Assembly (NCBI GenBank): GCA_021771915.1
Contig: JAETNY010000006.1
Coordinates: forward strand, 1-64,000
Reading direction: 5' to 3'
DNA: 64,000 nucleotides
DNA from: Bacillota bacterium
GTDB lineage: Bacteria; Bacillota; Dehalobacteriia; UBA4068; UBA4997
Shown: positions 3,873 through 51,215 of the stretch, piece after piece
How the letters are laid out: every line of letters starts with the position of its first letter
How positions within the stretch are numbered: the stretch's first letter is position 1
Made by a program: the position numbers and the translations under genes
Notes under the pieces: generated by a model
Database searches by the model: none
Seen by the model: only the letters and a program-made list of their open reading frames with translations
Told to the model about the DNA's origin: nothing

Positions 3873-4000
3873 CTTTTTATCATTCCTTTCATTTAATTAA
3901 TTGAACAAGTTATATTGACTTTTTGTAAACTTCTTCCAATATATTATAATACACTAAAATTATTTTGTCAAATTATCAACATAACTGTTCAAGCGCTTTA

Positions 4001-5294: not shown

Positions 5295-6980
5295 TCAACG
5301 CAGCTTGCGTCCGGCTTCAATCAGTTCGTCAGCCTGACGACGCGTAGTTGCCGTAACCTTATCCCCGGCCAGCATACGGCTTATTTCCAAAACCTTGGCT
5401 TCGCCAGCCAATTCCTGCACCGTAGTAATCGTGCGACCGTCATGCTCGTTTTTTTCCACCAGCAAATTGTTATCCGCATAGGCCGCCAAAACCGGAGCAT
5501 GCGTAACACAAATAGCCTGAGTTGAACGAGCCACCTCCACCAGTTTTTCCGCCACACTGCCCAGAGCCCTGCCACCCAGCCCGGTATCAATTTCATCAAA
5601 AATCAAAGTCGACACTTCGTCCAAACTGGCCAAAATAACCTTAATCGCCAACATAATGCGCGACATTTCGCCACCAGAAGCAATCTTCGCCACCGGCTTC
5701 ATTTCCTCACCCGGATTGGGGCTAATCATAAACTGCACTTCATCAAAACCATCAGCAGACGATGCTTTAGCTGCCAAATCCACCGCAAAAACCGCCTTAG
5801 ACATCTGCAAATATTTCAGTTCTGCCGTAATCTTGGCCGCCAATTCCTGCCCGGCGTTTGCGCGCAACTGGTGCAGTTTTTGCGCAGCTTGTTGATAAAA
5901 CGCGGCCAATTTAGTTTCTTTATCTGCCAGGTCAGCCAGATATTCCTCCCGATTTTCTCGCCGCTCCAATTCCTGCTGATTATCAGCCAGAATTTTCAGC
6001 AAACCGGACTCATCAGCTTTATATTTTTTACCCAACACTTTCAGAGCAAAAAGTCGAGAATTTATTTCTTCCAAACGCTCTGGGTCGTCCACAATCGCCT
6101 CCCGATAACTGCGCAATTCCAGCGCCGTATCTTCCAGTTCATAATAAAGATTTTGCAGACGCGTTTGCAAAGGCTCAACTTCGGCATCAATCCGCTTCAG
6201 CTCGTCCAACTCGTCAACCACCGTTGAAAGATTAGTCAGCGCGGCATTATTACCGGCATATAAAGCCGCGTAAGCCCGGCCGGCGTGTTCGCTACGTTGC
6301 TGCACACTTTCCAGCCCTGAAGCTTCTTTAGTCAATTCTTCAACCTCGCCAGGGTGCAACTTGGCCTCTGTCAGTTCGGCAATTTGAAACTGCAAAAAAC
6401 GCCGTCTTTCTGCATCGTCCGCCGTTTCCTGTTTGGCCTGCGCCAGCTGCTTCGCCACCTGTTGCCAGCTTTGATAGGCCGCTGCTGTTTCCTGTCGCTG
6501 TGCAGCAATCAAATCGCCTCCAAAGCTGTCCAGCAAATGCAATTGCTTTTCCGGCTCCAACAAACTGACATGTTCACTTTGCCCGTGAATGTTTATCAAC
6601 AACCGACCAACAGCTTTTAAAGCAGCCAGCGGCACCGGCTGCAAATTAATGCGACAAGTGGAACGCCCTGCCGCCAAAACCTCGCGGCTTAAAATAAGTT
6701 CCTCGTTTTCCTCCGAATCAAAATCCAGCCCCAATTCGGTCAGTTTCTGGCGCAGGGTTGCAGAAAAAGGCGGCAAAAACACACCCTGCACCCGACAACG
6801 CTCCGCCCCACGCCGCACCTGCTCCTTGCCGGCTCGGCTGCCCAACAGCAGCGATACAGCGTCTAACAGCATGGATTTACCAGCACCGGTTTCACCGGAA
6901 AGCACATTCAGGCCAGGCTGCCAAAGCAGCACCGTTTTTTCAATCAGAGCAAGATTTTCAATATAAAGCTCCGCAAACAT
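5295..6980 (-). CDS. recN: DNA repair protein RecN
   Basis: An SMC-like ATPase that gathers DNA ends in double-strand-break repair by homologous recombination. At 561 residues it is full length. Visible motifs are the Walker A SGETGAGKS (residues 28-36), the ABC signature IASGGEMSRIMLAIK, and the Walker B LIFDEIDTGLGG, with a long coiled-coil region (about 160-360) rich in Glu, Leu, Gln and Arg between them. The ribosome site AGGAGAAG precedes the ATG. It follows argR after 20 nt, as in many Firmicutes, and is probably co-transcribed with argR and nadK. Confidence 0.96.
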   Translation of the reverse strand: MFAELYIENLALIEKTVLLWQPGLNVLSGETGAGKSMLLDAVSLLLGSRAGKEQVRRGAERCRVQGVFLPPFSATLRQKLTELGLDFDSEENEELILSREVLAAGRSTCRINLQPVPLAALKAVGRLLINIHGQSEHVSLLEPEKQLHLLDSFGGDLIAAQRQETAAAYQSWQQVAKQLAQAKQETADDAERRRFLQFQIAELTEAKLHPGEVEELTKEASGLESVQQRSEHAGRAYAALYAGNNAALTNLSTVVDELDELKRIDAEVEPLQTRLQNLYYELEDTALELRSYREAIVDDPERLEEINSRLFALKVLGKKYKADESGLLKILADNQQELERRENREEYLADLADKETKLAAFYQQAAQKLHQLRANAGQELAAKITAELKYLQMSKAVFAVDLAAKASSADGFDEVQFMISPNPGEEMKPVAKIASGGEMSRIMLAIKVILASLDEVSTLIFDEIDTGLGGRALGSVAEKLVEVARSTQAICVTHAPVLAAYADNNLLVEKNEHDGRTITTVQELAGEAKVLEISRMLAGDKVTATTRRQADELIEAGRKLR

Positions 6981-7000
6981 ATTCTTCTCCTAAATAAATA

Positions 7001-7450
7001 TTACTCAACATATTCCTGCAAACGGCTCACCATCTCCTGAGCGCTTTGGCTGCTGTTAGCCAGTGCAAAAATCGTATCATCACCAGCCACCGAGCCCAGC
7101 AAATTATCCCAGTTCATGCCGTCCAAACAGGCCGCCACTGCCGAAGCCATACCCGGCAGGGTTTTCAGCAGCACAATATTTTCTGAACCAACCACTTTAA
7201 GCACATTATCCCGAAACATACGCCGGGAACGGTCAACATTATTCACCACAACCGCCGTCGGCAAGCTGTATCGAAAAGTATTCTCGCCGGAAACAACCTT
7301 TATCAGCCCCAGTTCCTTAATATCACGGGAAATTGTTGCCTGCGTAACATCAAAACCAAACTTACGTAATTCCTGCGTCAGCTGCAACTGGGTTTCAATG
7401 TTCTGATTTTCCACAATCTCTCTAATCATACGATGTCTTTTATTTTTCAT
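7001..7450 (-). CDS. argR: Arginine repressor ArgR
   Basis: Arginine-responsive transcriptional regulator (ArgR/AhrC). The 149 residues contain an N-terminal winged helix with TQELRKFGFDVTQATISRDIKEL, the recognition pattern of the family, and a C-terminal hexamer/arginine-binding domain ending in SVAGDDTIFALANSSQSAQEM, where GDDTIF supplies the arginine-contacting aspartates. A ribosome site AGAGGAG lies upstream. No arg gene lies in the window, so its targets are elsewhere. Its place between nadK and recN is the usual one in Firmicutes. Confidence 0.96.
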   Translation of the reverse strand: MKNKRHRMIREIVENQNIETQLQLTQELRKFGFDVTQATISRDIKELGLIKVVSGENTFRYSLPTAVVVNNVDRSRRMFRDNVLKVVGSENIVLLKTLPGMASAVAACLDGMNWDNLLGSVAGDDTIFALANSSQSAQEMVSRLQEYVE

Positions 7451-7490
7451 AGGGGTTAAACTCCTCTTTGCTTAAATTCTACATAATAAA

Positions 7491-8372
7491 TTATTCTGCC
7501 AGCAGCTTACTTTTCAGCTTTTTCAAGAACATTCCGCGTTCTGGCCAGACAAAAATTGCCGAATGAGAAAATTTGCGCACTTCAATTACATCACCATTGG
7601 CAATATCCTGAAACTGCTGGCCGTCATAGGCAATTTTGGCCGAATCCGCCGCGCTGCTGACACGCAGCTTAATATCGCTTTCAGCGGATACAACCATCGG
7701 CCGGGAATAAAGATTATGCGCCGCCACCGGCGTAATCAACATAACCTTCGTTTCTGGCAAAACAATTGAACCGCCAGCGGAAAGTGAATAAGCAGTGGAA
7801 CCGGTGGGTGTGGCGACAATCAGACCATCGCCTTTCATCTCCACAGCTAAAATACCATCAATCCAGACATTTATATCAATCATGCGGCTGATATTGCCGT
7901 TATTAATTACAATATCGTTTTGGGCAATTCCCTCCATAAGCTGTTGACCATCGCGCCAAACTCGACCGCAAATCTGCATGCGCTGCTCCAGAATATAATC
8001 TCCCTGTACCAGCCGCAGCAAATTATGCGGCATACCTTCCGGTTCCAACGACATCAAAAAACCCAGATTACCCATATTCACCCCAACCAGCGGTATATCC
8101 AGCCGGGAAATCGCCCTGGCAACGGCAATCAGCGTACCGTCGCCGCCAAAAACAACGGCCAATTCAGGCCATTGAACCTTATCCAGATTTTGCAAATCGT
8201 TCAGCAAGAGTTCCGGCCGATGACCAGAATAACCCGGCAAATCGCCAACCGTCGGCACTAACAGTTCCACGCCCTGGGATTCCAGCAATGCGGCCGCTGC
8301 GCAAGCCGCCTTAACCCCCCAGGCCTTATGTTCATTTAATAAAAATACCACTCTGCTTATCGGTTTAGCCAT
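7491..8372 (-). CDS. nadK: NAD kinase
   Basis: Phosphorylates NAD+ to NADP+ in the cytosol. From the ATG at 8372 (AAGGAGG upstream) the protein is 293 residues, with the defining GGDGT motif at 76-80, the NMGNLGFL segment, GDGLIVATPTGSTAYSLSAGG as the second conserved block, and a C-terminal beta region. A longer frame upstream to 8456 runs through the promoter and is rejected. A promoter with a 17-nt spacer lies just upstream, and a hairpin separates the gene from tlyA, so nadK-argR-recN is probably one transcript. Confidence 0.95.
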   Translation of the reverse strand: MAKPISRVVFLLNEHKAWGVKAACAAAALLESQGVELLVPTVGDLPGYSGHRPELLLNDLQNLDKVQWPELAVVFGGDGTLIAVARAISRLDIPLVGVNMGNLGFLMSLEPEGMPHNLLRLVQGDYILEQRMQICGRVWRDGQQLMEGIAQNDIVINNGNISRMIDINVWIDGILAVEMKGDGLIVATPTGSTAYSLSAGGSIVLPETKVMLITPVAAHNLYSRPMVVSAESDIKLRVSSAADSAKIAYDGQQFQDIANGDVIEVRKFSHSAIFVWPERGMFLKKLKSKLLAE

Positions 8373-8435
8373 TGTCTGAACCTCCTTGCTTATCAGTTTG
8401 TTATGCATAATATACAACAATATACACCTATATAT

Positions 8436-8464
8436 ACAATATGTTTTTTTCTGCAATTTGTCAA
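8436..8464 (-). promoter_or_regulatory. Promoter of nadK-argR-recN
   Basis: On the minus strand, TTGACA (8464-8459) and TATTGT (8441-8436) have a 17-nt spacer, about 60 nt before the nadK start. Confidence 0.6.
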
Positions 8465-8475
8465 GTATTTTTAGG

Positions 8476-8522
8476 CAAAAAGCCGAAGAAAGCTAAAAAA
8501 TCTTTTTAACTCTCTCCGGCTT
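8476..8522 (-). terminator. Probable terminator of tlyA
   Basis: AAGCCG (8480-8485) pairs with CGGCTT (8517-8522), and the pairing continues imperfectly inward (GAAGAAAG against CTCTCT). Read on the minus strand, the stem is followed by TTTTGCC. It sits directly after the tlyA stop codon. Confidence 0.5.
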
Positions 8523-8526
8523 ATAA

Positions 8527-9375
8527 TTAATTTTTCTGTATATTTTCGCTTTGCTTATCAGTTTTATCTTTATTTAATGCCCCAAAAGCAGCCGCAACTG
8601 CCTTTTCCGGCGTCAACACCGGATTGGCGGCAGCATCTGCCGGCTGTTTGCCCAGCCAAAGCAGATATTCAATATTACCCTCCGGGCCTTTGATTGGTGA
8701 AAAATCCAGCCCCCAACAGTAAAAACCCAAATTGGTCGCCGCCATCTGCACATTCTGGATAACCTGCAAATGTACGGCCGGGTCACGCACCACGCCCTTT
8801 TTGCCAACTTTATCACGCCCAGCTTCAAACTGCGGCTTAATCAGCGCCATAATAAAGCCCTCTGGCTTTAAAAGCGGATAAAGCGCCGGCAACAGCTTAC
8901 TCAATGAGATAAAAGCTGCATCAATCGTTGCGGCGTCCAGCGGCTCCGGAATTTTTGTCGTCGTCAAATAACGGGCATTTGTTTTTTCCAAAACCACCAC
9001 TCGCTCGTCCTGACGCAGTTTCCATGCCAGCTGACCGTAACCAACGTCAACGGCGTAAACCCGAGCCGCCCCGTTTTGCAATGCGCAATCCGTAAAACCG
9101 CCCGTGCTGGCGCCAATATCGGCCACAACCAGACCATTAAAATCCAGACCAAAGCTAACCACCGCCTTGGCCAGCTTTAAGCCGCCGCGGCTGACATATG
9201 GAAGCTGCTGTCCGCTCACCAGCAAAGCGGCTTCCTGATGCACCTGCGCCCCGGCCTTATCCACAATCTGCCCGTCTACGCTGACCTTACGCGACATTAT
9301 TGCTGTCCGCGCCTGCTCCCGGCTGGGGAAGAGCCCCTGCTCCACTAATAAAACGTCCAATCGCATTTTTGCCAT
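8527..9375 (-). CDS. tlyA: TlyA-family rRNA 2'-O-methyltransferase / hemolysin
   Basis: S4-domain plus FtsJ-type SAM-dependent methyltransferase; TlyA proteins methylate 16S/23S rRNA at cytidines, and some were first described as hemolysins. The 282 residues show an N-terminal S4 RNA-binding domain (MRLDVLLVEQGLFPSREQAR, then SVDG), the SAM motif VVADIGASTGGFTDCAL, DVGYGQLAWKLR, and a KPQFE motif (ALIKPQFEAG). ATG at 9375 is chosen over an upstream frame extension into the promoter; a GAGG lies 13 nt before it, and an ATG three codons on is the alternative. It heads the classic tlyA-nadK-argR-recN order. Confidence 0.92.
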   Translation of the reverse strand: MAKMRLDVLLVEQGLFPSREQARTAIMSRKVSVDGQIVDKAGAQVHQEAALLVSGQQLPYVSRGGLKLAKAVVSFGLDFNGLVVADIGASTGGFTDCALQNGAARVYAVDVGYGQLAWKLRQDERVVVLEKTNARYLTTTKIPEPLDAATIDAAFISLSKLLPALYPLLKPEGFIMALIKPQFEAGRDKVGKKGVVRDPAVHLQVIQNVQMAATNLGFYCWGLDFSPIKGPEGNIEYLLWLGKQPADAAANPVLTPEKAVAAAFGALNKDKTDKQSENIQKN

Positions 9376-9409
9376 AATTCTGCCATACCTCAAATCTAAA
9401 TCTTCATTA

Positions 9410-9438
9410 ATTATACAACACAATTACCAATCTGGCAA
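9410..9438 (-). promoter_or_regulatory. Promoter of tlyA
   Basis: Minus-strand TTGCCA (9438-9433), 17-nt spacer, TATAAT (9415-9410), leaving a leader of about 30 nt. Confidence 0.75.
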
Positions 9439-26377: not shown

Positions 26378-26406
26378 TTGACAAAAAAAAAGAATTATAA
26401 TATAAT
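26378..26406 (+). promoter_or_regulatory. Consensus promoter of thrS
   Basis: Perfect TTGACA (26378-26383), 17-nt spacer, TATAAT (26401-26406). The leader is only about 48 nt, too short for a T-box. Confidence 0.9.
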
Positions 26407-43939: not shown

Positions 43940-45037
43940 TTAACAGGGTAACTCCAGCCAGCACTGCTCCGGCTGCACCTGCTCCACAAATACGCGACTG
44001 GCGTCGGCCGCATTTTTGGCTTGATTAAACTTAAACAACATTTGCCCGTCTGGCATTTTACCAACAATCTCAACCTTGCCGCGCGGTGTAGACATGCAAT
44101 AACGCAGACACTTACCCACTCCATTCTGAGCGTTCTTAGCCGATTCCACAATATCCAAACCCTGCAACAGCGGCACCTGGAACTGCGCCTTAACACCACG
44201 CACTGGCCGGCACTGGAAAATATAATAAGGCGATACGCCAACTGCCGTTAACTCTCGCAGCAACTGCTTCAAAACCTCCGGGTCATCATTAACGCCCTTT
44301 AACAGAACTGTTTGATTGCGCAACATAATGCCAGCGCCAATAAAGAATTTAATAACCGCCTTGGCCTGCTCGGTCAGTTCTCTATGATGATTAAACTGAG
44401 TTATAACATAAAGCTGCTTACGCTTGGCATACTCTTTAAAAATATCCTGTAACTGCTGGTCCTGCAAAATTCGGTCTGGATAAACCACTGGCACCCGGGA
44501 ACCGAAACGAATAAAATCAAGCTGCGGCAACGCAGTCAATTCACGCAAATATTTTTCCAGCGTTGAATTGGATAACAACAGCGAATCACCACCGGAAACC
44601 AGAATATTAGTAATCTCCGGGTGAGCTTTGATATACTCCAGCATGGCGTCAAAATTCTGAGCAATCTCGTCCTCATTAGAACCAACCAGACGCTTACGGA
44701 AACAATGACGGCAATACATCGCACAACGATTAGTAGAAAGAATTAAAGCTGTTTCCCGATATTTATGCTGCAAACCAGTTATCACTGTGTTATCGGCCTC
44801 ACCACTGGTATCAAAATCGCCCGACATATCCGTTTCCGTCAAAGAAGGAATACACATACGCTTTATAGGGTCGTTGGGATTTTGCCAATCTATCAATGAT
44901 AAGTAATATTGAGGAATTGCCATTGGGTAAACGTCCAAAATGCTTTGCAAGCTGGCTTCTTCGTCCGCGGAAAGCCCCATAAAACCGCTGATTTCAGCAG
45001 CTTGCGTGTAAACCTTATTTTTTTTCTGCTCTGTCAT
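43940..45037 (-). CDS. KamA-family radical SAM aminomutase-like protein
   Basis: A 365-residue radical SAM enzyme of the lysine 2,3-aminomutase family. The cluster motif is CAMYCRHC in STNRCAMYCRHCFRKRL, followed by ILVSGGDSLLL (SAM binding), FGSRVPVVYPDRI, and QTVLLKGVNDDPEVL. The family also includes EF-P lysyl-modifying EpmB and glutamate aminomutases. At 365 residues it is shorter than canonical KamA (about 415), and I cannot tell the substrate. AGGAGG precedes the ATG. It lies after dxs with a long hairpin between. Confidence 0.88.
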   Translation of the reverse strand: MTEQKKNKVYTQAAEISGFMGLSADEEASLQSILDVYPMAIPQYYLSLIDWQNPNDPIKRMCIPSLTETDMSGDFDTSGEADNTVITGLQHKYRETALILSTNRCAMYCRHCFRKRLVGSNEDEIAQNFDAMLEYIKAHPEITNILVSGGDSLLLSNSTLEKYLRELTALPQLDFIRFGSRVPVVYPDRILQDQQLQDIFKEYAKRKQLYVITQFNHHRELTEQAKAVIKFFIGAGIMLRNQTVLLKGVNDDPEVLKQLLRELTAVGVSPYYIFQCRPVRGVKAQFQVPLLQGLDIVESAKNAQNGVGKCLRYCMSTPRGKVEIVGKMPDGQMLFKFNQAKNAADASRVFVEQVQPEQCWLELPC

Positions 45038-45204: not shown

Positions 45205-47076
45205 TTATAACTGCCAACGCTGCATAATACGTTCACCCAGCTGTTCCGGCAATAGATTATAACGCGCAAAAAGCTGCTCCGGCTTACCATGTGGTATAAA
45301 CTCCGCCGGAAAAGCCGCCAATTCAACTTCCGCCGCAATTCCCCGGGATTGCAACAGCGCCAGAATATTCTCGCCAACGCCGCCGGATATCACGCCGTTT
45401 TCCCAAACTACCAACCGGCCAAAGCTTTGCGCAAAATCACAAAGCAATTCTTCATCTAAAGGCTTGGCAAAACGCAAATCAGCCACAGCCGCCGTCACAC
45501 TACGCTCCGCCAGCCAATCAGCCAACGCCAGACTATTCTGCACCATATCACCCACCGCTAAAATACCCAGTTTAGCCTGCGGCGGCCGCCGCAAAATTTC
45601 GCCCTTACCCCAAACCAACGGTTGAAGCGGATACTGGGCCAAAGTTGGCGCAGAGCCGCGCGGATAACGCAAAGCTACTGGCTGACCAAGCTGCAAAGCA
45701 TAATCAAGCATTTGCTGCAAAGCGGCGGCGTCACGCGGCGCCAAAACCGTCATATTGGGCATAGCGCAAAGCATGGATAAATCAAACAAACCCTGATGTG
45801 TTTCACCGTCCTCGCCAACCAGACCAGCGCGGTCAATCGCCAAAACCACAGGCGAATTAGCCAGACAAATATCCTGAAACAGCTGGTCATAGGCGCGCTG
45901 CAAAAAAGTTGAATAAACCGCCACCACCGGCCGCAGACCGCGCGCCGCCATTGCGCCGGCAAAGGTCAGCATATGCTGCTCCGCAATACCCACATCGTAA
46001 AAACGCTCTGGAAAACGCTTCTGAAAAGCTGCCAGCCCTGTACCGTCTGGCATGGCCGCCGTTACGGCCACCAATCGTGGCTCCGCCTCGGCCAGCTTTA
46101 AAAGCTGTTCCGCAAAATAATCCGTCCAGCTGGGCGGCTTGGGCGATGTTTGTCCTGTTAGCAAATCAAAACTGCCAATACCATGAAATTTGGTCGGGTC
46201 AGCCTCGGCCGGCCCATAGCCCCTGCCCTTTTGCGTAATGACATGAATTAACACCGGCTTTTCAATCTGCCCAGCCAAACGCAATGTTTCCAACAATTCA
46301 GCAATATTATGACCGTCTACCGGCCCCAGATAAACGAAGCCCATTTCCTCGAACAAAACGCCGCGCACTAGAAAATATTTAACAGCATCACGAAATCGTT
46401 CCAGTCCATAATAAAACGACTTGCCCAAGCGCTTGCGTTTCAGCAAAAACCGGGTCAGCCTGTCTTTCAAATGCCGATATCGCTTGTTGGAGCGCAGACG
46501 CATTAAATATTTGCTCATCGCACCAACATTTTCCGCAATCGACATTTCATTATCATTCAAAATAACCGTAAACGGCAGACGCAAATCGCCGCCATGATTT
46601 AGGGCTTCATAAACCATGCCGCCGCTCATCGCTCCATCGCCAATCACAGCAAATACCTTTTTTTGCTGCCCCAGCTGCCTGGCCGCCTGACTGATACCAA
46701 CCGCCACTGAAATAGACGTGCTGCTATGCCCGGAAACATAAGAATCTGCCGGGTTTTCATGCGGCTTAGGAAAACCGCTTAAGCCGTCCAGCCGGCGCAG
46801 CGTATCAAACTGCTCTCGCCGGCCCGATAACAGCTTATGAGCATAACACTGATGCCCCACGTCCCAGACAATTTCATCAGGCCCCGGCGCCAAATCCAGA
46901 TAATAATGCATAGCTATAGTCAACTCTACAATCCCCAGATTAGAGGCCAAATGGCCGCCGTTCTGGCTGACAACACGCAGAATTTCCTGCCGCAGTTCCG
47001 CCGCCAAAACCTCCAGCTGAGCCTGATTTAGCTTTTTAACATCGGCTGAATTGTTAATTTGCTCCAAAACTACCAT
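45205..47076 (-). CDS. dxs: 1-deoxy-D-xylulose-5-phosphate synthase
   Basis: First enzyme of the MEP isoprenoid pathway, joining pyruvate and glyceraldehyde 3-phosphate with thiamine diphosphate. The 623 residues contain SNLGIVELTIAMHYYLD, the ThDP motif VIGDGAMSGGMVYEALNHGG with its distal Asn (NDNEMSIAENVGAM), GRGYGPAEADPTKFHG, and the transketolase-like central domain (DVGIAEQHMLTFAGAMA). AAGGGAAAA lies upstream. It is the third member of the OLE RNA-oapA-dxs unit; linkage of OLE to isoprenoid genes is a known feature of that RNA. Confidence 0.96.
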   Translation of the reverse strand: MVVLEQINNSADVKKLNQAQLEVLAAELRQEILRVVSQNGGHLASNLGIVELTIAMHYYLDLAPGPDEIVWDVGHQCYAHKLLSGRREQFDTLRRLDGLSGFPKPHENPADSYVSGHSSTSISVAVGISQAARQLGQQKKVFAVIGDGAMSGGMVYEALNHGGDLRLPFTVILNDNEMSIAENVGAMSKYLMRLRSNKRYRHLKDRLTRFLLKRKRLGKSFYYGLERFRDAVKYFLVRGVLFEEMGFVYLGPVDGHNIAELLETLRLAGQIEKPVLIHVITQKGRGYGPAEADPTKFHGIGSFDLLTGQTSPKPPSWTDYFAEQLLKLAEAEPRLVAVTAAMPDGTGLAAFQKRFPERFYDVGIAEQHMLTFAGAMAARGLRPVVAVYSTFLQRAYDQLFQDICLANSPVVLAIDRAGLVGEDGETHQGLFDLSMLCAMPNMTVLAPRDAAALQQMLDYALQLGQPVALRYPRGSAPTLAQYPLQPLVWGKGEILRRPPQAKLGILAVGDMVQNSLALADWLAERSVTAAVADLRFAKPLDEELLCDFAQSFGRLVVWENGVISGGVGENILALLQSRGIAAEVELAAFPAEFIPHGKPEQLFARYNLLPEQLGERIMQRWQL

Positions 47077-47166: not shown

Positions 47167-47784
47167 CTATCTTTCCGTTTGATGCTGCTTCAAATAATAG
47201 CGCAAAACCTCTGGCCAATCCAGCAAACGGCCAACATTAAAAATAATATGGTCGGCTTTCTCAATGGCAAAGCTTTTACCCAAAGCCTTACCGGCTACGG
47301 TCATAGCCGCAATACAGCCGGCGATACCCACGCTAACCAGCAGACCGCGCGTGCCGCCGGAAGTTGTTAAAACCGCCGCCAGAGCCGTACCAATACCACC
47401 AGAAACCGTACCGCAAACGTCGCCAATTACGTCGTTACATATATTGGCCACCCGGCTGGCATTTCTAGTCAGCAGCAGCGCTTTTTTGGCTCCGGGAATT
47501 TTACGCGAAGCCTTGGCATTCAAATGCGTCTGACCGCAAACGGAAACGGCCGTACCGATAATATCAAAGAAAACGCCAATCAAAACCACCAGCATCAAAA
47601 CCGTAAAGCCCAGCCAAAAAGATTCCATATTGGCCAGCACAAAGGTTGACACCAGAGAAATCAGGCAGGCACAAAAAAAAGTGCTGACGAAAACAACCAA
47701 TGTGTAAACGGCCGCACTGTTCTGCTTAGTATTTGTTTTACCGCCGTTTTTCGCGGCAGGTTTTTTGTCTGACTTGTCTGACAA
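47167..47784 (-). CDS. oapA: OLE-associated membrane protein OapA
   Basis: A 205-residue membrane protein with four hydrophobic segments (about 27-50, 55-82, 128-145, 150-170), separated by a polar loop containing LTRNASRVANICNDVIGD. The family is related to the DUF21/CNNM transmembrane domain and is sometimes labelled a Mg2+/Co2+ transporter. In OLE-carrying bacteria its homologue OapA binds OLE RNA and places it in the membrane. The basic, Lys/Asn-rich N-terminal tail (residues 1-24) could contact RNA. The start is TTG behind GGAG. The gene follows directly after the candidate OLE RNA and precedes dxs. The assignment rests on size, topology and context; no search was run. Confidence 0.82.
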   Translation of the reverse strand: MSDKSDKKPAAKNGGKTNTKQNSAAVYTLVVFVSTFFCACLISLVSTFVLANMESFWLGFTVLMLVVLIGVFFDIIGTAVSVCGQTHLNAKASRKIPGAKKALLLTRNASRVANICNDVIGDVCGTVSGGIGTALAAVLTTSGGTRGLLVSVGIAGCIAAMTVAGKALGKSFAIEKADHIIFNVGRLLDWPEVLRYYLKQHQTER

Positions 47785-47825
47785 ATTTTTTCCACTCCAT
47801 ATTTTATTATTATTAAATAAAAATA

Positions 47826-48425
47826 ATATGTGACAATCACCAGGTAAACTTTATGGCTTAGGTCTGGCAAGGTTTCCTATTGGCCACGCCACCGCGTCAC
47901 CGCTGTGGCGGTTCCCTCTTACGGGCCAATCTGAGGCGTTGCCGCAACTCAGCGCCAAATCACCACTTAGTCCATACTATAATCCCTGATGACATCAGTC
48001 TAGGAGCTTTCCTCAACGCCACAAACCACATTTTTAGCCTCTTTTGCAACAATGGTTTCATCAAAGTCTCCGCCAGTCTGGTCAAACCGGTCAGTCTTTG
48101 TTTTTAAGCCCCTAAAAAAGAGGCAATCCACCAGTGCCACTCAAGGCAGGCTACACTGCACCCAGCATTTAACCGAATGCAGGTTTAATCCCAAGCCATA
48201 GTTATCATGCCTGACCAAAGACATCTCCCCACGCACTTGGGTCTCCACGGAAATTGGGTCGGCTTCCACATGCCGTTGCAGAGCGCCCAAAAACCTTAAC
48301 TCCCACTACCAGCCCCCGACTGGGCGTCAGAAGCCAGCACCAGAAACTTCATCGATGTGCCCTTAACGGATTTTTAGCCCCGTCTTCAAAATGCAGCGTG
48401 ACGACTAGAATACTGTGTCACATAT
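47826..48425 (-). ncRNA. ole: OLE RNA (Ornate Large Extremophilic RNA), candidate
   Basis: A 600-nt ORF-free, GC-richer region. Its ends pair: ATATGTGACA at 48425-48416 on the minus strand against TGTCACATAT at 47835-47826, a perfect 10-bp closing stem. Inside are nested hairpins, such as ATTGGCC/GGCCAAT (47879-47885 with 47924-47930) around CGCCAC/GTGGCG (47887-47892 with 47905-47910), CTGAG/CTCAG (47931-47952), and CTGAT-GAC-ATCAG near 47986. A perfect promoter lies just upstream and oapA and dxs just downstream. Length (known OLE about 600 nt), secondary structure and the adjacent OapA all fit. RNase P, tmRNA and 6S signatures are absent. In other bacteria OLE with OapA forms a membrane ribonucleoprotein linked to stress tolerance. 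Confidence 0.85.
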
Positions 48426-48433
48426 CATTTCTT

Positions 48434-48462
48434 ATTATAACATAGCCAAAAAGTTTTGTCAA
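48434..48462 (-). promoter_or_regulatory. Consensus promoter of OLE RNA-oapA(-dxs)
   Basis: On the minus strand TTGACA (48462-48457), a 17-nt spacer and TATAAT (48439-48434), both perfect. The expected start at about 48427 coincides with the start of the OLE closing stem. Confidence 0.93.
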
Positions 48463-48552: not shown

Positions 48553-48906
48553 TTACCAATGCAAAAAATCTTCAATCAAATCCATTGTTCCTGTTGCAGA
48601 AATCGTCAAAAGCAAAAAACTGCAAGCACAATCCATAGATGCATGTTTTTTCAACCAAACCTGCGCAGCCTGATACAAGCGGCGGCGCTTATCCGCACTC
48701 ACCGCCTCCGCCGGCGCAACCCAACTATCCGCGCCGCGATATTTAACCTCAACAAAATAAATAACTCCGCCTTTGCGGCAGATTATATCAATCTCTCCTC
48801 GGCCGCCCCGGAAATTACGCTGCAAAATCTCATAACCCTGCGCCTGCAAAAAGGCCGCCGCCCTGTCCTCGGCCTGCCGCCCCAGCTGCGCGCTCAATCT
48901 GCCCAT
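48553..48906 (-). CDS. yraN: YraN-family endonuclease-like protein (UPF0102)
   Basis: A 117-residue protein with the PD-(D/E)XK-like core GRGEIDIICRKGGVIYFVEVKYR, the Asp and Glu-x-Lys pattern of the YraN family of presumed nucleases, next to Holliday-junction resolvase-like folds. It starts with GRQAEDRAAAFLQAQGYEILQRNFR, also typical. AAAGGGGCG precedes the ATG. Its order after rnhB and a small membrane protein is common in Clostridia. Substrate unknown. Confidence 0.92.
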   Translation of the reverse strand: MGRLSAQLGRQAEDRAAAFLQAQGYEILQRNFRGGRGEIDIICRKGGVIYFVEVKYRGADSWVAPAEAVSADKRRRLYQAAQVWLKKHASMDCACSFLLLTISATGTMDLIEDFLHW

Positions 48907-49097: not shown

Positions 49098-49859
49098 CTA
49101 TTCCCCTTTAATCGGCCGTAAAACAAAACTGCGCCGGTGTATCGGTGAGCGACCCAGCGCAAAAACTGCGCGCTTATGTTCTATGGTCGGATAACCGGCA
49201 TGCTGCGCCAGATTATAACCAGGATACTTTTCATCATAAATCTGCATCATTCTATCCCGATGGCATTTGGCCAAAATGCTGGCCGCGGCAATGCTCATAC
49301 TTTTAGCGTCACCCTTAATCAGCGCTGTCTGCGGCAGCTGGGCATATTCACGCAAATTCTGCCACAAGGCTGCCGACGGCAGCTTCATATCCGCCAGGCG
49401 TAAAGCGTCCAGCAGCAAATGTTGCGGTTTTAAAGGCAGCTTATACAAGGCGCGCAACATAGCCAATTTGGTGGCCTGCAATATATTATAGCGGTCAATC
49501 TCCCACACACCAACCGCCGCCACCGCCCATGCCAGCGCCGCCTGCTTAATCAGCGGTTCCAGCGCATAGCGTTTTTTGGCGGAAAGCTTTTTTGAGTCGT
49601 CAACCCCAGCCAACCAACAGCCCGGCCGCCAAATTACAGCCGCCGTCACCACCGGCCCGGCAATCGGCCCCCGGCCAACCTCGTCTAACCCGGCCACCAA
49701 CTCCGCGCCGCTCTGCCAAAGCGTTTGCTCACAGGTCAGCATCTGCTTTAAACGCTCCATTTCTGCTGATTCGTCGCTTGCCAAAGCCGCCTTATCAATC
49801 TCGCCGCCACCCTGTCCAGCCAGCTGCCAAGCCTCAGCCGGCAAATCTCCAACCTGCAT
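49098..49859 (-). CDS. rnhB: Ribonuclease HII
   Basis: Removes ribonucleotides from RNA-DNA hybrids. The 253-residue enzyme has LVAGLDEVGRGPIAGPVV with catalytic Asp and Glu, LDDSKKLSAKKR-like WLAGVDDSKKLSAKKRY, LLLDALRL, and KGDAKSMSIAAASILAKCHRDR with the later catalytic residues. An N-terminal extension of about 50 residues of low conservation resembles that of Bacillus RnhB. I use the ATG at 49859, 6 nt from GAGG; a TTG six bases earlier is in frame. Confidence 0.95.
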   Translation of the reverse strand: MQVGDLPAEAWQLAGQGGGEIDKAALASDESAEMERLKQMLTCEQTLWQSGAELVAGLDEVGRGPIAGPVVTAAVIWRPGCWLAGVDDSKKLSAKKRYALEPLIKQAALAWAVAAVGVWEIDRYNILQATKLAMLRALYKLPLKPQHLLLDALRLADMKLPSAALWQNLREYAQLPQTALIKGDAKSMSIAAASILAKCHRDRMMQIYDEKYPGYNLAQHAGYPTIEHKRAVFALGRSPIHRRSFVLRPIKGE

Positions 49860-49871
49860 ATACAACCTCGC

Positions 49872-50735
49872 TCATATCTCGTCCAAAGTAAAACTACCAA
49901 TTTTGCCATTACGAAACTCTGCCAGCAACAGCCGCGCCGTTTCCTCCAAACGCACCACGCCACCAGCCGCCAACAGCCCCCTGGCCCGGCCAATCGCTTC
50001 CAGAACCATTTCTGGCGGCTGACCGGTCAAATCTGCCACAGCCAGCTTATAACGCGCCGCCAATTCCGCCGCACCATGCTGCGTCAGCCATTCCACCAGT
50101 TGCAGCGAAACCTGATAATAATCATAAACCGTTTCACTAATCGCCCCGGTTACCGCCAAACGAAAAGCCACCTCTGGCTGCTCAAATTTCGGCCAAAGAA
50201 CGCCGGGCGTATCCAAAAGTTCTATCTGCTCGCCCAGCCGCACCCACTGTTTGCCACGCGTAACCCCCGGTTTATTGCCGGTTTTGCTGACCGCCTTGGG
50301 CAGAAGCGAATTAATCAAAGTACTTTTGCCGGTGTTCGGTGAACCAACCACCATAACTCGAACCGGCCGCCGCCGCCGACCCTTGGCCGCCAACTCCGCA
50401 AACAGAGGCTCCGCTGCCTGCATAATCTGCCGCTCCAAAACCTTAACGCCCTGCGTTTGCTGCGCATTAATGGCCACCGCCCCCACGCAGCCCGGAAAAC
50501 GCTGCGGCAAAGCCGTCAGCCAGCGCTTAGTTGCCGCGCTATCAGCCAAATCACGCTTGTTAAGCACCATTAAAACCGGTTTTTGGCGCAAAATCTTATC
50601 AAAATCCGGATTATAGCTTGATTTTGGTATTCGCGCGTCCAACACCACCAGCGACAAATCAACAATCCGCATGTCTTCCTGCATCAGGCGCTTGGCCTTG
50701 GCCATATGCCCCGGATACCACTGTATAACTGTCAT
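49872..50735 (-). CDS. rbgA: Ribosome biogenesis GTPase RbgA (YlqF)
   Basis: A circularly permuted GTPase for late 50S assembly. In the 287 residues, the G4 motif VLNKRDLAD comes first (about 58-66), followed by G1 GSPNTGKSTLINSLL and G3 DTPGVLWPKFE, and a C-terminal RNA-binding domain. The start IQWYPGHMAKAKRLMQEDM is the family hallmark. An AGGAG lies 6 nt before the ATG. A TATAAT at about 50762-50767 with TTGTGA 16 nt upstream, at the edge of repeat copy B, may be its promoter. Confidence 0.95.
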   Translation of the reverse strand: MTVIQWYPGHMAKAKRLMQEDMRIVDLSLVVLDARIPKSSYNPDFDKILRQKPVLMVLNKRDLADSAATKRWLTALPQRFPGCVGAVAINAQQTQGVKVLERQIMQAAEPLFAELAAKGRRRRPVRVMVVGSPNTGKSTLINSLLPKAVSKTGNKPGVTRGKQWVRLGEQIELLDTPGVLWPKFEQPEVAFRLAVTGAISETVYDYYQVSLQLVEWLTQHGAAELAARYKLAVADLTGQPPEMVLEAIGRARGLLAAGGVVRLEETARLLLAEFRNGKIGSFTLDEI

Positions 50736-51153: not shown

Positions 51154-51215
51154 TTGACATCACATAAAAATTATAATATAATACATATAAATTTGATACA
51201 TCTAATCAAGATGTA
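51154..51215 (+). promoter_or_regulatory. Perfect promoter and palindrome upstream of the coiled-coil gene
   Basis: TTGACA (51154-51159), 17-nt spacer, TATAAT (51177-51182). Downstream, TACATCT-AATCA-AGATGTA (51197-51215) is a 7-bp inverted repeat placed in the early transcribed region, a candidate operator for the divergent XRE protein. Confidence 0.75.

Follow-up and report, generated by a model that had tools for sequence, protein, structure and literature searches.

Does a region of about 600 nucleotides, lying in a Bacillota genome between yraN and a membrane-protein gene next to dxs, encode OLE, a large and structured RNA of bacteria that acts at the cell membrane, and how does this locus compare with the corresponding site in related genomes? 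A preliminary description of the window (the whole 64,000-nucleotide stretch of DNA analyzed here), made from the sequence letters, had inferred an OLE locus with its partner OapA and proposed a covariance search. We performed this search with cmscan, and the Rfam OLE model RF01071 aligned on the minus strand over all of its 616 positions, scoring far over the gathering score (427.5 vs. 50 bits; Table 1). The whole model aligned, and the largest deletion (approximately 13 nt) falls in a small hairpin. This is a full-length OLE RNA, with P7, P8, P9, and the P13 loop present (P13 loop region CGGUGACG retained), and is neither variant 1 nor variant 2. It is found as a single copy in the window's genome, and just spurious short ORFs overlap it, in keeping with the ORF-free region first described. 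With the adjoining membrane protein belonging to the OapA family, we consider it nearly certain that this is an ordinary full-length OLE ribonucleoprotein locus; its RNA family, OapA family, partner-gene presence, and synteny are established, and the locus is a new, standard representative of a known family.

Table 1. Features of the OLE locus in the window, and related loci without ole and oapA
Feature	Position	Strand	Evidence
OLE RNA gene, full-length type	47814–48437	−	cmscan RF01071, 427.5 bits, E = 3.4e-122, model 1–616 of 616
Promoter TTGACA-N17-TATAAT, directly before the RNA	48434–48462	−	exact match
Closing stem 5' arm (taken to be P1)	48416–48432	−	17 contiguous pairs with 47819–47835; compensatory changes in relatives
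Closing stem 3' arm	47819–47835	−	pairs with 48416–48432; compensatory changes in relatives
oapA, 205 aa, TTG start, DxxxD at residues 118–122	47167–47784	−	homologous loci, DxxxD, weak PF01595, CNNM/CorB fold
dxs	45205–47076	−	TIGR00204, E = 5e-220
KamA-family radical SAM gene, downstream of dxs	43940–45037	−	TIGR00238, E = 6.8e-69
yraN (UPF0102), upstream neighbor	48553–48906	−	PF02021, E = 2.7e-25
rnhB, ribonuclease HII	49098–49865	−	NF000594, E = 4.1e-75
ylqF, ribosome biogenesis GTPase	49872–50735	−	TIGR03596, E = 3e-92
Loci without ole-oapA, flanks in place	L088, L091, L095, L098, L099, L102, L122–L124, L126, L129		

The ends of the RNA bear out what had been read from the sequence, namely a perfect promoter and a 10-bp stem joining end to end at the transcript start. 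The promoter is exact, and relatives carry a TATAAT-like −10 element at the equivalent position. The −10 box extends to 48434, so initiation shortly past it, by a few bases, would place the 5' end of the transcript within the closing stem. The core of this stem (48416–48425 with 47826–47835) consists of ten perfect Watson-Crick pairs and extends outward to 17 pairs, two of them G-U. The stem is kept in relatives by compensatory changes; for example, where this RNA has GUGAC/GUCAC, some relatives have GUGGC/GCCAC and a further one has GAUGGU/ACCAUC. The Rfam OLE structure leaves it unpaired. Across the window, we found four exact copies of TTGACA-N17-TATAAT vs. none in 100 shuffles. The other three lie at 3943–3971, 26378–26406, and 51154–51182, where chance would lead one to expect none.

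The TTG-started ORF of 205 residues noted earlier is present, and it starts 29 nt past the end of the OLE RNA match. We found homologues at 45 loci by searching genome contigs, and the closest named record, OapA from an uncultured Peptococcaceae MAG, is 99% identical. The DxxxD motif is invariant in all homologous loci covering it (95/95). The Pfam CNNM model PF01595 matched weakly (E = 2.3e-5; 24.6 bits, under the 28.4-bit cut-off), no NCBIfam model matched this protein, and weak CNNM homology of OapA has already been published (PMC11332333). An AlphaFold2 model built from 20 sequences (mean pLDDT 80.7) has long helices at residues 19–52, 56–82, 109–143, and 145–175, which is consistent with the putative four-helix membrane protein first described. 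When we compared this model with the PDB using Foldseek, the top five matches were MtCorB and CorC structures of the CNNM family (probability 1.00), at weak E values (0.008–0.24); MtCorB 7M1U is the structure also named for OapA in PMC11332333. The predicted CNNM-like membrane fold is thus shared with the CNNM magnesium transporters MpfA, CorB, and CorC, but unlike them the protein has DxxxD and lacks CBS and CorC_HlyC domains within its 205 residues. By its DxxxD motif, CNNM-like fold, and place directly downstream of OLE in relatives, the protein belongs to the OapA family, as the comparison with OapA suggested in the preliminary description had anticipated.

Next to oapA lies dxs, also as described. 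In most homologous loci that we read, the OLE motif pair immediately precedes oapA, and dxs comes next in nearly all of them; this adjacency is a rule for OLE-oapA that has already been published. The genes tlyA, nadK, and recN come after dxs in most relatives, and four genomes of the window's genus (G001, G003, G004, and G008) keep dxs-tlyA. A KamA-family gene follows dxs only in the window's subclade, that is, in the window's genome and its near relatives G005–G007. The tlyA-nadK-recN block of the window, previously placed about 40 kb away, lies at 5295–9423, approximately 36 kb from dxs, because a rearrangement inside the genus moved it away from the OLE locus.

We also searched the window's genome for the other known partners of OLE. 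OapC is encoded as an L7Ae-like (YbxF-like) protein upstream of rpsL, with YbxF 4lck as its best solved match (E = 4.1e-12), and bS21 is encoded as well (PF01165, E = 3.3e-23). The 119-aa protein between map and infA, which we located by this gene position, is probably OapB; its best PDB match is OapB 7k9b at a marginal E value (0.063), no Pfam or NCBIfam model fitted it, and a search with PF00467 (KOW) returned two other KOW proteins and did not pick it up. No more than about 60% of OLE-bearing species have an OapB (PMC11332333). Since OapC, bS21, and a probable OapB are all encoded, the known partner set is probably complete. Using the CorC_HlyC domain as the marker for MpfA-type proteins, we detected none in this genome.

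We compared the locus with the OLE-OapA system of Halalkalibacterium halodurans, drawing the features of the family from PMC11332333, PMC12054373, PMC9723947, and PMC12265935. Both have an RNA of family RF01071 with full-length architecture, oapA directly downstream and dxs nearby, a CNNM-like OapA with DxxxD, and OapC and bS21 encoded elsewhere. The locus here differs in its upstream genes (ylqF-rnhB-yraN), in having a promoter directly before the RNA, in the distance to tlyA-nadK-recN, and in P6. Three U-U mismatches interrupt this helix (window 48249–48295; GGUUUUUGGG/CCCAAUUUCC), which is A/U-rich and contains no exact anti-Shine-Dalgarno mimic. At its inner end, the conserved G-C pairs are retained. 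We treated the exact mimic as a feature of H. halodurans that does not define the family, and CCUCC occurs in 3 of the 16 distinct P6 sequences read. As the H. halodurans mutants M1–M3, without the exact anti-Shine-Dalgarno sequence, still bind bS21 (PMC12054373), a missing mimic is compatible with membership in the OLE ribonucleoprotein. The presence of bS21 in a genome whose P6 lacks the exact mimic suggests that this mimic is not general.

Such local differences could also be read as decay of an OLE locus whose function has been lost in this lineage. P6 and P7 contain several non-standard pairs, the bit score is somewhat below that of many relatives, and the small hairpin around model positions 416–435 is shortened (10 nt here vs. 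20–24 nt in distant relatives), as it also is in other families of the order. The unusual P6, however, is common to the genus, so it is inherited rather than a sign of fresh decay. The end-to-end match to RF01071, an intact oapA with the invariant DxxxD, the kept promoter and closing stem, and the retention of OLE in each of the other genomes searched from the genus (eight) and the family (one) make decay very improbable. We regard it as less probable still that the region is a cis-acting leader of oapA-dxs and yields no separate RNA. It does lie directly upstream of both genes on the same strand, with 29 nt separating the RNA match from oapA, yet its closing stem defines a discrete molecule, and in H. 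halodurans OLE exists as an RNA of its own, processed and very abundant, which functions together with OapA (PMC12054373, PMC11332333).

As an OLE ribonucleoprotein, the locus may work as follows. The dedicated promoter would drive an OLE RNA of approximately 600 nt, whose ends would close on each other to give a discrete folded particle. By homology, the CNNM-like OapA would bind this RNA, with two OapA per RNA, and would anchor it at the membrane as in H. halodurans. OapC, bS21, and probably OapB, whose genes lie elsewhere in the genome, would make up the rest of the particle, and OapC and bS21 may remodel it (PMC12054373, PMC9723947, PMC12265935). In H. halodurans, the particle aids coping with cold, alcohol, high magnesium, and poor carbon sources (PMC11332333, PMC12054373, PMC9723947, PMC12265935); from this species we infer membrane localization, protein binding, and a role in stress and magnesium responses here.

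Finally, we determined where OLE is present and where it is missing. OLE was found in 72 of the 101 genomes searched (the window's own counted) and, within the order, in 19 of 35, leaving 16 without it. We could read across the locus in 11 of these ole-lacking genomes (G014, G016, G018–G020, G022, G024, G026, G027, G029, and G034), where ole and oapA are jointly missing from a conserved ylqF-rnhB-yraN-dxs-tlyA arrangement; the yraN-dxs gap measures 40–148 nt in these, vs. 1314–1480 nt with OLE. Most of the 11 encode an MpfA-type protein. Across the order, CorC_HlyC proteins were found in 1/19 OLE-bearing vs. 13/16 ole-lacking genomes, the three without a detected MpfA being G022, G031, and G034 (89, 73, and 61% complete, respectively). 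G003, of the same genus as the window, is an exception to the exclusion, carrying both OLE and an MpfA-type protein (C34:8558-8797 and C16:33353-33970).

In an RpoB tree, the sampled ole-lacking genomes group into a single clade (support 94/99) that is nested among genomes with OLE, and a Dxs+TlyA tree requires two OLE changes; therefore, there were one or two losses of OLE. The contrast in MpfA gives a Fisher p value of 4.6e-6 that ignores the kinship of the genomes and is not to be taken at face value because they are non-independent and represent one or two OLE changes, which also left too few pairs for an independent-pairs test. Outside the order, CorC_HlyC occurs in 21/53 OLE-bearing vs. 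10/13 OLE-less genomes, so coexistence of OLE and MpfA is common. A phylum-wide anticorrelation between the two has been published, with Negativicutes as the one class reported to be without OLE (PMC11332333); the pattern in this order agrees with it, narrowed to one branch. Negativicutes as the host of the window was rejected on the basis of the Peptococcaceae record closest to its OapA. Our tentative reading, held with rather more doubt than confidence, is that ole and oapA disappeared together in one clade, whose locus is otherwise unchanged and which carries an MpfA-type magnesium transporter instead, as a natural knock-out and replacement. Being just one or two evolutionary events, the contrast is suggestive of replacement and is not proof of it. 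The joint loss of ole-oapA in the sister clade, together with the contrast in MpfA-type proteins, is perhaps new.

Taken alone, the window's locus is one more well-preserved example of OLE. The added value lies in closely related genomes with and without ole-oapA at the same site, which bring the idea of replacement between OLE and MpfA from a phylum-wide correlation down to one branch and offer matched gene sets for tests in H. halodurans. If the replacement is true, it would support the view that the OLE complex and MpfA are functionally equivalent, which has hitherto been argued from the anticorrelation across the phylum.
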